Origin: Acidobacteriota bacterium
GTDB taxonomy: Bacteria; Acidobacteriota; Vicinamibacteria; Vicinamibacterales; CAVVIG01
Assembly (NCBI GenBank): GCA_028876655.1
Contig: JAGWRA010000026.1
Coordinates: forward strand, 1 to 41,879
DNA: 41,879 bases
Reading direction: 5' to 3'
Both the position numbers and the translations under genes were made by a program. The notes beneath the pieces were generated by a model that was given only the letters and a program-made list of their open reading frames with translations, had not been told where the DNA came from and did not search any database. This document shows positions 6,752 to 38,182 of this stretch, piece after piece (positions within the stretch are counted from its first letter, which is position 1; every line of letters starts with the position of its first letter).

Positions 6752-9700
6752 ATGACCGCACAACTCAAGAAGGCCGCGCTGGTCCTGGTGGCCGTCCTGG
6801 CGCTGACGGGCATGTTCAGCAGCCGGGCGTACGCCACCCACTTCCGCTACAGCACCATCTCGTGGTCGGCGAGCCCGACCAACACCCACCAGGTGACGTT
6901 CCAGATTCAGTCGGCCTGGCGGTGGGACTTCCCGTGGCAGATCTCGCATCCGCAGGTCGGCCAGACGTTCAACTCCGGCTACGTCTTCTATTTCGGGGAC
7001 GGGAGCTATGGTCAGATGAACCTGACCGTCACTGCGGTCGATGCGGCCAACGACTGGATGGTGGCGACGACGACGCTGACGCACACCTATGCGGGCAACG
7101 GTCCCTACATGGCGTATTTCGAGAACTGCTGCCGCCTGTCGACGCTGCTCGACAACAACCACGACCTCAACTTCATCCTGGATACGAGGGTCGTGCTGAG
7201 TAATACGCAGCCGAACCAGTCGCCGACGGTTGCGAGCGTGCCAATCATCGTGATGCCGGCGGGCGTGACGACGAGCTTCCAGATTCCGGCGAGCGATCCC
7301 GACGGGACGATTGCGTCCTACGCCCTCTCGACCACGGTGCAGTCGGGGCTAGACACGCCCTCGCCGCTGGGATTGAAGCTCACACCGTCTGGCCTGGTGA
7401 CCTGGACGCCGGCGACGTTCCAGGAAGGGCTGCATGCGATCCAGTTCACGATCACGGACAACGACGGGAACACCGTGCCGCTCGACGTGCTCCTGAACGT
7501 CATTCCTTATGCCGGTGGCACGCCGCCGACGGTGCTGATCAACAGCTCGAGCAGCCCGGTGACCGTGAACGCGCAGGCGGGCGTGCCGCTCAGCGTCGCG
7601 TTGGGCGCGACCGATCCGGACCTCGACCCGGCGACGGGACTGCCGAATACCCTGGTGACGATGGGCTCGGGCGGCCTGCCGGTGGGTGCCACGGTGACGC
7701 CGACGATGCCGTTCACGCAGCGGGTGCCGGAGACGGCGACGTTCACCTGGACGCCGACCCTGGCGCAGGCGGCGCAGACCTACACGGTCGTCTTCTCGGC
7801 GACCGACAACACCGGGCTGCAGTCGACCAACTCGCTGACGATCCACGTGGCGAGCCCGCAGCCGCCGACGGCGACCTGTTCGCCGGCGACCTACGCGGTG
7901 CAGCCGACCTCCGCGGCCGGTGCCGACGTCACGATGTCGGCCGCCGTGCAGGATCCGAACAAGCTGCCGCTGACGGTCACCTGGACCGCTGACGGCGCGG
8001 CGACCCCCGCGCAGACCGACAACGTGGCCGGCGGGACGACCGGTCCGACCACGCTGACCTCGACGCAGACCTTTGCGGTTGGCAGCCACTCGGTGGTGGT
8101 GGCGGCGACGAATACCTTCTTCTCGACCGGCACGTGCACCATCGGCGTGACGGTGGCGAAGGCGGACCAGACGATCACCTTCCCGGAGGTCGGGCCACAG
8201 ACCTACGGCGGCGCGCCGATCGTGCTGGGGGCGACCGCTTCGTCCGGTCTGCCGGTGACCTACACGCTGCTCTCGGGGCCGGCGACGCTCAGCGGCAACA
8301 CGCTGACGATCACGGGTGCCGGAGCGATCATGGTGATCGCCTCGCAGGCGGGTGACGCCACCTTCAACCCGGCGGCCGATGTCCCGCAGGAGATTGTCGT
8401 CGGGTTGGCGACGCCGGTGGTGTCGGTGACGGGCGGGACCTTCACCTACGACGGGACGCCGCACGCCGCCACGGTGACGGCCACCGGCGTGGGCGGCGCG
8501 CCCCTCGCGCCGGTGACGGTGACCTACAACGGGTCGGCGGCGGTGCCGGTCGACGCGGGAACCTACACCGTGCAGGCCAGCTACGCCGGCGGCGCGAACT
8601 ACGCGCCCGCCAGCGGCTCGGCGACGGTCACGATCAACAAGGCGACGCCGGCGGTCACGGTGACCGGCGGCACCTTCACCTACGACGGGACGCCGCACGC
8701 GGCCACCGTCTCGGTGACCGGCGTGGGCGGCGCGGCCCTCTCGCCGGTGACGGTCACCTACAACGGCGCGCCCGACGTGCCGGTGCACGGCGGGAGCTAC
8801 GCGGTCGCCGCGTCGTTCGCCGGTGACGCCAACTACCTGCCGGCCAGCGGCACGGCCTCGATCTCCATCACCCGGGCGTTGCCGGCGATGGTGGTCAAGG
8901 CCGGGACGTTCACCTACGACGGCACGCCGCACGCGGCGACCGTGTCGGTGACCGGCGTGGGCGGCGTGGCGCTCGGCCCGGCCACGGTCCTCTACAACGG
9001 ATCGCCCTCGGTGCCGACGAGTGCCGGCAGCTACCCGGTGCAGGCCCACTACGCGGGGACGACGGACTACGATCCGGTCGACGGCACGGGGACGCTCGTG
9101 ATCAACCCGGCGTCGCTGACCATCGCGGCCAACAGCACGTCGATGTCCTACGGCGGCGTGGTGCCGGCGCTCGGCGTGACCTACACGGGCTTCGTGGGCG
9201 GCGATTCGCCGGCGAGCCTCGCCACGCCGGTGACGATCTCGACGACGGCGACGCCGACGAGCCCGGTGGGGACCTACCCGATCGTGGTGGGCGGCGCGAC
9301 GTCGCCGAACTACACGATCGCGTTCGTCAACGGCGTGCTGACGGTGAACCCGGGCCAGCTGACGATTACCGCCGACAACCAGACCAAGTGGGTGGGGGCG
9401 GACGTCCCGGCGCTGACGGTCACCTACGCCGGCTTCGTCAACGGCGACACGGCGGCGAGCCTGACGACGCCGGTGACGGTCACCACGACGGCCACGAAGC
9501 TGAGCCCGTCGGGGACCTACCCGATCGTGGTCTCGGGCGCGACCGACCCGAACTACACCATCGTGTTCGCCAACGGGACGTTGACGGTGGTGGGGCTGCA
9601 GCAGGTGAAGCAGACGGCGCGCGCGGCGATCGCGGCGCTGAAGCCGACCGGCAGCCGCCAGATGGATCATGAGATCGACGAGGCGCTGCGGGAAATCGAC

Positions 9701-19376: not shown

Positions 19377-19385
19377 CGATGAGCG

Positions 19386-19493
19386 GCAATGGGCAATGCG
19401 CAATGGGCAATGAGTGACGAGCGATGAGTGATCCGGGAGGTGCGGTTCTGAACAATACCCATTGCGCATTGCCCATCGCGCATTGCCTGCACC
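19386..19493. repeat. Facing GCAAYGN heptad arrays (inverted pair)
   Basis: Left array, plus sense: GCAATGG, GCAATGC, GCAATGG, GCAATGA, then drifting GTGACGA, GCGATGA, GTGATCC (19386-19434). Right array, inverse sense: CCATTGC, GCATTGC, CCATCGC, GCATTGC, CTGCACC (19459-19493). About 25 bp lie between them, so the two arms can pair as a long hairpin. The unit length is a strict seven. The element begins 10 bp after the E1 stop and ends shortly before the MFS start, so it could affect read-through between them. Confidence 0.85.
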
Positions 19494-19521
19494 TGGTCCC
19501 CTGCCTCAGCCCTCTTCTGCC

Positions 19522-36982: not shown

Positions 36983-37010
36983 GCAACGGGCAACGAGCAA
37001 TGGGCAATGG
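36983..37010 (+). repeat. GCAAYGR heptad array, plus sense
   Basis: Four perfect 7-nt units: GCAACGG, GCAACGA, GCAATGG, GCAATGG. It starts 16 bp after the O-methyltransferase stop and directly precedes the hairpin at 37013. The same unit, in inverted sense, is found at 37580-37607 on the far side of MaoC and in both senses at 19386-19486. Confidence 0.85.
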
Positions 37011-37012
37011 GT

Positions 37013-37040
37013 CGCGGGTGACGCGGTCGCGTCACCCGCG
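37013..37040. terminator. 13-bp hairpin between convergent O-methyltransferase and MaoC genes
   Basis: CGCGGGTGACGCG (37013-37025) and its exact inverted copy (37028-37040) are separated by GT; in practice an 11-bp stem with a 6-nt loop. It lies 46 bp after the plus-strand stop and 17 bp after the minus-strand stop, so it can end both transcripts. Confidence 0.7.
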
Positions 37041-37057
37041 GTGGCCTTGGCGGCTCC

Positions 37058-37486
37058 TTACCGGCCGAGCGGCATCGTGTAGCAGACGGCGGTACCTTCC
37101 AGGGCGACGGTCCCGTCGTCGCGCACGACCCGGGTCGTCAGCTCCGTGATCGGCTTGTCGGCGCGCACCTTCGTCACCTCGACTTCGCCCGTGATCGTGT
37201 CGCCCGGCCGCACCGGCGCCTTGAAGCTCCAGTTCACCTGGAGGAACACGGTGCCGGGGCCGGGCAGATCTTCGGCGACGACGGCGTTCAGAATTGCGCT
37301 CGTGATGCCGCCCTGGACGACGATGCCGCCGAAGCGGGTGGCGCGGGCGAGCGCTTCGTCGTAGTGGAGCGGATTGCGATCGCCGCTGATCGCGGTGAAC
37401 CGCTCGATGTCCCCCGCTTCGACCAGGCGCGACCGGCTCGCGCGCTGTCCGACCGCCGGCATCCCCTTCGGCCACACGTCAGTCAC
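37058..37486 (-). CDS. MaoC-like hot-dog-fold dehydratase
   Basis: With GTG 37486 as start, the protein has 142 residues. It has the hydratase-2 signature SGDRNPLHYDEALAR, with catalytic Asp36 and His41. FGGIVVQGGITSAIL, LQVNWSFKAPVRPGDTITGEVEV and the closing strands are typical of single-domain MaoC/PhaJ-type (R)-specific enoyl-CoA hydratases. It would hydrate trans-2-enoyl-CoA to (R)-3-hydroxyacyl-CoA in the cytoplasm; the chain length is unknown. Another GTG (37477) and an ATG-led start near residue 9 are possible. A heptad array touches the chosen start codon, and GGAGAC within it could serve as a weak ribosome-binding site. Gene order suggests read-through from DUF1697. Confidence 0.88.
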   Translation of the reverse strand: MTDVWPKGMPAVGQRASRSRLVEAGDIERFTAISGDRNPLHYDEALARATRFGGIVVQGGITSAILNAVVAEDLPGPGTVFLQVNWSFKAPVRPGDTITGEVEVTKVRADKPITELTTRVVRDDGTVALEGTAVCYTMPLGR

Positions 37487-37549
37487 GGTCTGCAGTCTCC
37501 AGTCTTCGGTCTTCAGTCTTCGGTCTACGGTGCACAGGCTGCGGGCTAC
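37487..37549. repeat. RGTCTNC heptad array abutting the MaoC start codon
   Basis: Units of seven from 37487: GGTCTGC, AGTCTCC, AGTCTTC, GGTCTTC, AGTCTTC, GGTCTAC, then drifting GGTGCAC, AGGCTGC, GGGCTAC. The first base of the array is next to the GTG of MaoC (minus strand). In MaoC mRNA the units read GAAGACY/GGAGACT. Confidence 0.85.
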
Positions 37550-37579
37550 GGGGGCAGGCGGTGCGGCTTCGAGCAACAC

Positions 37580-37607
37580 CCGTTGCCCGTTGCTCATTGC
37601 CCATTGC
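37580..37607 (-). repeat. GCAAYGR heptad array, minus sense
   Basis: Units on the plus strand are CCGTTGC, CCGTTGC, TCATTGC, CCATTGC; on the minus strand GCAATGG, GCAATGA, GCAACGG, GCAACGG. It is the inverted partner of 36983-37010, and the MaoC gene lies between them. Confidence 0.85.
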
Positions 37608-37615
37608 GACATCGT

Positions 37616-37643
37616 CCCGAGCCCCGAGCCCCGAGCCCCGAGT
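37616..37643. repeat. CCCGAGC heptad array abutting the DUF1697 stop codon
   Basis: Units CCCGAGC, CCCGAGC, CCCGAGC, CCCGAGT, in strict 7-nt steps. The last base is shared with the minus-strand stop codon at 37643-37645. It is related in sequence to the array at 493-513 (GCCCGGA, GCCCGTA, GCCCGAG), which also touches a stop codon. Confidence 0.85.
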
Positions 37644-38182
37644 CAGTCCCGTCCGTACTTGTCCGCCATCTTCTTCAGCGTCTTCGCGCCACGGATCGTC
37701 GCGCGGCAGCCGAGCGCCCGCTCCAGGACCGCGTTCGAGAAGGTCGACTCGCTCTGCCGCTTGCGGCACAGCCAGTAGATCTCCCGTCCCTGCACGCGGA
37801 AGTCATCGATGTCGGTCCGCAGCGTCATCAGCTTCCGCTGGCCCGTCGGGTCGAGCGGATCGCGGAGGAATCCGACGTTGAACGCCACCGCTTCCTCGAA
37901 CGGACGGACCGGGAAGGGCTGTCGTTCTGCCGCGACCACGAGTTCGCCCGGGGTCCTGATGAAGGTCGCCACCTCGTAGCCAAGCGCATCCTCGAGCGTC
38001 GCTTCGATCGTTCGCTCGAGCGCCGCAGCCTTTCCTGGGCTGTCGAAAACCACGTTGCCGCTCGCGATGAAGGTCTCGACGTTCGTGTGTCCCATCGACG
38101 AGAACAGCTCGCGCAGCCTGTCCATCTTCACCGTGTGGCCCCCGACGTTGATGGCGCGCAGGAAAGCGATGTATCGCGGCAT
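37643..38182 (-). CDS. DUF1697 family protein
   Basis: The 179-residue protein opens PRYIAFLRAINVGGHTVKMDRLRELF, with FIASGNVVFDS near 39-49, which is the standard DUF1697 start. The middle has VAFNVGFL, and the closing RKRQSESTFSNAVLERALG and MADKYGRD fit the full family length. Function is unknown; the fold is of a small alpha/beta protein. Its ATG is one base after the stop of the MBL gene (TGAC-ATG), so it is translated by coupling. It ends exactly at the CCCGAGC heptad array. Confidence 0.9.
   Translation of the reverse strand: MPRYIAFLRAINVGGHTVKMDRLRELFSSMGHTNVETFIASGNVVFDSPGKAAALERTIEATLEDALGYEVATFIRTPGELVVAAERQPFPVRPFEEAVAFNVGFLRDPLDPTGQRKLMTLRTDIDDFRVQGREIYWLCRKRQSESTFSNAVLERALGCRATIRGAKTLKKMADKYGRD

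Follow-up and report, generated by a model that had tools for sequence, protein, structure and literature searches.

Heptanucleotide repeats have long been noted in bacteria of unrelated groups, and there is no consensus on what causes them. Rehm et al. 2015 (PMC4692102) described G-rich heptamers, (GGGANTN)n in Xanthomonas and GGGGA(C/T)T in Nostoc, whose preference for four units they tied to G-quadruplexes, and in two Xanthomonas genomes they counted 70 and 75 convergent inverted pairs, which lie close to the ORF on the 5' side. MacGregor 2015 (PMC4679880) reported TAACTGA direct repeats in marine Beggiatoaceae, cyanobacteria and Bacteroidetes, for which S1, Csp or Csr proteins were proposed. 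The same paper cites Mrazek et al. 2007 for the finding that heptanucleotides outnumber the other repeat classes in most genomes and for the proposal that polymerase slips by 7 nt.

The window analysed here is a stretch of 41,879 nucleotides from a 281-contig draft genome of an Acidobacteriota bacterium (G000). For comparison, one genome per species was used, including a relative of the same genus that is 82% complete (G001).

Heptad arrays in the MaoC-DUF1697 gap

The gap under study, at 37478-37642 of the window, is bounded by two minus-strand genes, a MaoC-like one (PF01575) and one for DUF1697 (PF08002). An earlier note had described it as consisting almost wholly of three heptad arrays, and all three are present: identity at lag 7 reaches 96 of 158 positions, whereas 5000 dinucleotide shuffles gave 43.3 ± 5.4 and at most 64. 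Lags 14 (76) and 21 (72) are also high, and the remaining lags tested give 29-49.

The left arm, which adjoins the 5' end of the MaoC gene, reads on the plus strand as six RGTCTNC units (GGTCTGC, AGTCTCC, AGTCTTC, GGTCTTC, AGTCTTC, GGTCTAC) at 37487-37528, and this word occurs at many sites of the genome. The array had been said to run to 37549; the part beyond 37528, however, drifts into the GGGCTNC family (GGTGCAC, AGGCTGC, GGGCTAC, GGGG; 37529-37553 on the plus strand, with heptads to about 37549). Because the units pass from one word to the other in register, the left block is best described as two grading families, and the same adjacency of GGGCTNC and RGTCTNC recurs at further sites of the genome.

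Going inward from the DUF1697 gene, the minus strand of the right block carries four GRCTCGG units, a short linker, four GCAAYGR units and the hexamer GTGTTG. The outermost array, at 37616-37642 (CCCGAGC on the plus strand), abuts the DUF1697 stop codon at 37643-37645 (TCA on the plus strand), and GRCTCGG lies outside GCAAYG in all three cases where the two were found together. The GCAAYGR array (GCAATGG, GCAATGA, GCAACGG, GCAACGG) occupies 37580-37607 of the minus strand, and the GTGTTG that follows it at 37574-37579 on the same strand corresponds to the end motif of GCAAYGN arrays (downstream consensus GTaTTGc, 48 arrays). The gap is thus a composite of arms of different families. That the outer arrays touch the neighbouring codons, as the earlier note had it, is true of the DUF1697 stop codon; on the MaoC side it applies only if translation starts at the GTG at 37486-37484, whereas gene calling by codon usage places the start at 37477, and the Pfam match begins at residue 13 of the version with that start. 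No MaoC neighbour was found beside relatives of the DUF1697 gene in the fetched loci, which offered no orthologous gap for comparison.

The MaoC frame itself meets no stop codon in either the RGTCTNC or the GCAAYGR array and continues as far as an ATG at 37612 (37058-37612, minus strand), so that annotation pipelines may add a false N-terminal extension.

Further arrays are present elsewhere in the window. The next gap contains a GCAAYGR array on the plus strand at 36983-37010, 16 bp past the stop codon of a methyltransferase gene; directly after it, at 37014-37043, stands a strong inverted repeat, CGCGGGTGACGCG-gtcg-CGTCACCCGCG, which is likely a terminator. A degenerate array on the minus strand at 468-523 (CCGTAGC/CCGGAGC on the plus strand) was assigned to the GGGCTNC family by eye. 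The window also holds a 234-bp tandem repeat of 2.6-2.8 copies at 8407-9089.

Families, placement and grammar of the arrays

About ten words recur in the genome: GCAAYGN, RGTCTNC, RGGCTNC, TSAGTTN, GGGRTTN, GGACGTN, GRCTCGG, CGTTCTN, GYACGTN and GTACGAN. They are largely species-specific, as far as 21-mer and word matches can tell. GCAAYGR gave 90 matches in G000 (41 forward, 49 reverse), none in the 82% complete G001 and, among the other relatives, a single array, in G007; RGTCTNC gave 64 matches in G000 (29 forward, 35 reverse) and 3 in G001; AACTSAN is present in 12 of 40 relatives. A universal preference for GCAAYG was rejected, because 2 of the 297 genomes sampled from the phylum had the word, and a reversed control was about as frequent. 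Across phyla there were more than 100 GCAAYG matches among the matches listed, a number that reflects the size of the collection. In three loci (L036, L043, L050) the gaps abound in GCACGT, GTACGT and GGACGT heptads, with GACAAG and TGTCAC as linkers; they are partly self-complementary and look like an additional family that obeys rules of its own. An intergenic sequence that is not built of heptads, GCGCCTGCGGCCATGCCGAGCCGAGGAC..., was noticed at several gaps in both G000 and G001 (L042 1492-1619; L187 and L182 of G001).

Abundance was determined in 416 kb of contigs picked independently of repeats; another 20 loci, selected for matching the focal gap, served for anatomy and were excluded from abundance. 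Genes were called with a home-made codon model that reproduced the expected genes of the window. The 416-kb sample yielded 26 arrays with a lag of 7, 12 with a lag of 14 and 10 with a lag of 21; every other lag yielded 0-5. Identity in non-coding DNA was 0.313, 0.307 and 0.314 at lags 7, 14 and 21 against a baseline of 0.289, whereas coding DNA was flat (0.277 at lag 7 vs 0.275 at lag 8). The prediction of a peak at seven and its multiples outside genes only was therefore borne out.

Arrays lie outside genes in 83 of 91 cases, while 90% of the DNA is coding. They are enriched in convergent gaps (20 of 75 arrays vs 44 of all 409 gaps), depleted in divergent ones (6 of 75 vs 82 of 409), and nearer to the 5' neighbouring ORF by 49:23. 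The arrays of the studied genome prefer the 3' ends of genes. Independently of the direction of transcription, they are directed away from whichever gene end is closest (GCAAYG and RGKCTNC taken together, 40 outward and 9 inward), and for this reason paired arrays within one gap face each other: facing pairs outnumber back-to-back ones by 34:3 (p 1e-7), or by 37:10 when two ambiguous families are included. By G skew the inward order was kept 20:1. In the relative G035, TCAGTT precedes AACTGA in all 47 gaps that have both arms (47:0), whereas in G020 and G018 the order of the AACTSAN family is reversed, which argues that orientation is set per family and per genome and not by G content alone. 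The latter result also led us to drop a pure 'DNA end healing' scheme, with G-rich 3' ends extended and joined. A G-skew order of 16:4 in other phyla is suggestive only, since those loci had been selected by their GCAAYG arrays and certain pairs run on in register.

Inward neighbours belong to the same family in 21 of 37 pairs, where 10.2 were expected; unlike families make up the other 16 of 37. An order with younger families inside older ones would fit four families (GCAAYG inner, 9:0), but GGACGT/GYACGT lie on the inner side of GCAAYG (0:11), and such an order is only a lead.

In every family about six bases of the unit are constrained and one is freer. Differences between adjacent units cluster in certain columns, one or two per unit (587 vs 426 ± 13): Y and the last base in GCAAYGN, R and N in RGTCTNC, S and N in AACTSAN. 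The interior TCAGTTN units of G035 have G in column 4 in 263 of 263 units and 37 G, 73 C, 60 A and 93 T in column 7. We infer that selection, rather than templating, fixes these columns. Such column-specific constraint, with tolerated classes R, Y and S and one free base, in arrays of about four units and in several families, would also suit multivalent sites for a putative sequence-specific DNA- or RNA-binding protein, and so would a core free of compensatory changes across arms. About ten words per genome would, however, call for equally many readers, or for one very loose reader, and the words differ among species of one family; we consider this explanation rather improbable.

The same columns bear on neutral replication slippage, by which a polymerase would duplicate 7-nt steps and arrays would change locally and survive where genes are unharmed (Mrazek et al. 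2007, as cited in PMC4692102 and PMC4679880). A period of exactly seven in every family, the in-register drift between families and the long near-perfect arrays of other phyla agree with it, as do adjacent units that are more alike than expected in G020, in G018 and, for AACTSAN, in G000. Yet likeness of neighbouring units in the free column is not above chance in GCAAYGN (0.40 vs 0.52 predicted from family frequencies) or in G035 (0.20 vs 0.27), nor do adjacent units exceed chance in G030, so that slippage is visible in some genomes and families and absent in others. Confinement of changes mostly to one or two columns, identical words at dozens of unrelated sites, fixed orientation, and fixed end motifs in two families speak against it as well, and we hold slippage to be an unlikely cause, although the least unlikely of the alternatives weighed here.

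Those end motifs are GTATTG, which commonly comes after GCAAYGN arrays (consensus of 48 arrays), and GGTCC-G, which comes after RGTCTNC arrays (19 arrays). Between an RGTCTNC and a GCAAYGN array, two unrelated loci have GGTCCTGTCACRTC in common. As for copy number, exactly four units is the mode of GCAAYG arrays (33 of 61), and in five genomes the mean for AACTSAN, taken over arrays of at least three units, is 3.9-5.0. G-quadruplex elements, the explanation offered for the Xanthomonas GGGNATC and Nostoc GGGGAYT heptads, would account for a G-rich strand, a four-unit preference and inward placement, all of which agree with the published cases. However, four GGG tracts occur in only 9 of 49 GCAAYG arrays of at least three units, although four units is the mode, and TCAGTTN arrays, which have no G tracts, contain about as many units. 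The proposed cause of the four units is thus inapplicable to most arrays here, and G-quadruplexes are a very improbable basis for them.

Probable gain of arrays, predicted hairpin folding and the proposed role

Within the fetched parts of G000 and G001, 15 gene pairs are adjacent in both species. Two array-filled gaps of G000, window 19377-19521 (145 bp) and L046 8048-8292 (245 bp), measure 1 and 0 bp in G001. The former contains an inward-facing GCAAYGN pair at 19386-19486, and its junction reads TGA-C-GTG in G001 and TGA-C-[array gap]-GTG in G000. These two empty sites in one relative, with no further relative retaining the gene pair of 19377-19521 as an outgroup, suggest that arrays were probably gained between genes rather than exactly lost in G001. 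No target-site duplication, as a MITE would leave, was obvious at either site, and no mobilising enzyme was identified. The RAYT-type Y1 transposase (PF01797) is absent from G000 and G030; it is present in 28 of 40 relatives, with no clear relation to heptads. Rfam 15 gave no match above the gathering score in the window and eight array-bearing loci.

As regards synthesis of heptads on an RNA template by a telomerase-like reverse transcriptase, as in DRT10, the fixed position of the free base within the unit and the conserved array ends look like the edge of a template, and DRT10 does yield tandem-repeat cDNA in bacteria, with 9-nt units for Eco3 (PMC12632851). The sole RVT_1 match in G000, however, is a retron-type reverse transcriptase fused to Toprim (L216 1369-3156, C251), which PADLOC classifies as RT-Toprim I-C and not DRT10. 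No DRT10-type or telomerase-like enzyme was found in this genome, an absence that weighs little in a draft of 281 contigs, and ten words would require ten templates. We regard templating as very improbable.

Facing arms of one family are predicted to fold. Over 43 gaps of G035 the median fold z was −5.0, and in some of them exactly six pairs, a single mismatch and six more pairs follow one another. Complementarity of the free bases across the arms of G035 is depleted, at 27 vs 42 ± 5.7 with shuffled partners (P 0.005; inner alignment P 0.016; one-sided values, uncorrected across several tests), and the small G000 set leans the same way, facing free bases being less often complementary. Copying of one arm from the other by fold-back was rejected on the ground that the free bases are not complementary. 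No compensatory changes were seen in the core columns of the G035 arms, and selection for base pairing is therefore not favoured by the data. The loops mostly differ between copies, contrary to what a freshly copied mobile element would show. Three loci of G035 (L276, L281, L288) share one loop and its flanks (ctacagcgaagtgaaaaacgctgtag near AGTT/AACT arms), and there the heptad hairpin was apparently copied whole as a unit. In the focal gap no hairpin signal was found over shuffles (z −0.2 and +1.2), as its unlike arms would lead one to expect. This gap, together with the 16 facing pairs of different families, indicates that a hairpin is not the whole story.

From these results, a hypothesis may be formulated to which we assign roughly an even chance: the gap would consist of dispersed, oriented heptad modules, gained between genes, often paired as imperfect hairpins and serving an intercistronic or 3'-end role. 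A module would be a short array in which a 7-nt word, constrained at some six positions and freer at one, is typically repeated about four times; it would be anchored at the end of a gene and directed into the gap, and modules would be acquired between genes. Where arms of the same family stand opposite each other, the transcript or extruded DNA could form an imperfect hairpin of 6-bp helices split by mismatched pairs. The most likely role of such paired arms, as far as the predicted folds go, would be that of an intercistronic or 3'-end hairpin, similar to REP/BIME, in ending, processing or protecting transcripts. The strict rules of copy number, fixed letters and facing pairs make the arrays look like small inserted elements and not like random stutter.

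The earlier note had further proposed one mechanism that makes or keeps 7-nt repeats regardless of sequence. As the predicted lag-7 peak was found and many unit sequences share the step of seven, a common process or constraint is likely, although a 7-nt mechanism is not established as the cause of the repeats. The words 'regardless of sequence' find no support: the families are few, occur at dozens of sites, are species-specific, have an orientation fixed to the nearest gene and, in some cases, conserved ends. A broader reading would take heptad modules for widespread small non-coding elements with a code of six constrained bases and one free, the free base being kept unlike its neighbours and its hairpin partner, so that pairing would proceed in 6-bp steps and never yield a perfect repeat or palindrome; a single cellular machinery would make or read such modules across many phyla, and G-quadruplexes would have no part in the four-unit rule of Xanthomonas and Nostoc. 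This reading is tentative, and we consider it more doubtful than probable.

Comparison with known intergenic repeats

Any explanation of heptad repeats has to account for arrays of about four units, a fixed free column, facing arrays, species-specific words and filled gaps that are missing in a relative, and these rules weaken both the G-quadruplex and the simple slippage accounts. They also indicate lineages for which tests of expression and deletion would be informative.

The heptamers of Xanthomonas and Nostoc resemble the present arrays in being intergenic and rare in divergent gaps, in their variable columns and four-unit preference, and in their convergent pairs near the 5' ORF. There, however, one word type was described per organism studied and G-quadruplexes were the explanation, whereas here about ten words occur together, several of them in one gap, and most arrays cannot form such structures. 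The TAACTGA repeats contain the same word as the AACTSAN family and are likewise intergenic with few units per set, but nearly all of them are direct and lie mostly just upstream of start codons, while the arrays described here form facing pairs and prefer 3' ends. Heptanucleotide simple sequence repeats (Mrazek et al. 2007; Calothrix) share the excess of 7-nt units outside genes; the slippage account, as relayed in the papers that cite it, makes no provision for several features seen here, namely the orientation and pairing of arms, the conserved ends, the preferred copy number and units that are not homogenised. REP/BIME elements (PMC3733652), palindromes of 20-40 bp with an unpaired GTAG or CGTC tag, are also short and dispersed, lie downstream of genes in convergent or co-directional gaps and form foldable facing pairs. 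The likeness extends in part to the tags, since (C)GTC opens some GCAAYGN arrays and AACTAC, the reverse of GTAG, often closes AACTSAN arrays. A single heptad array, however, is not self-complementary, so that only paired arms fold, the arms are iterated heptads, and G000 has no RAYT. The repeats of the focal gap thus belong with the known intergenic heptad repeats, of which they are a variant in that one genome has many words and a single gap may mix several.
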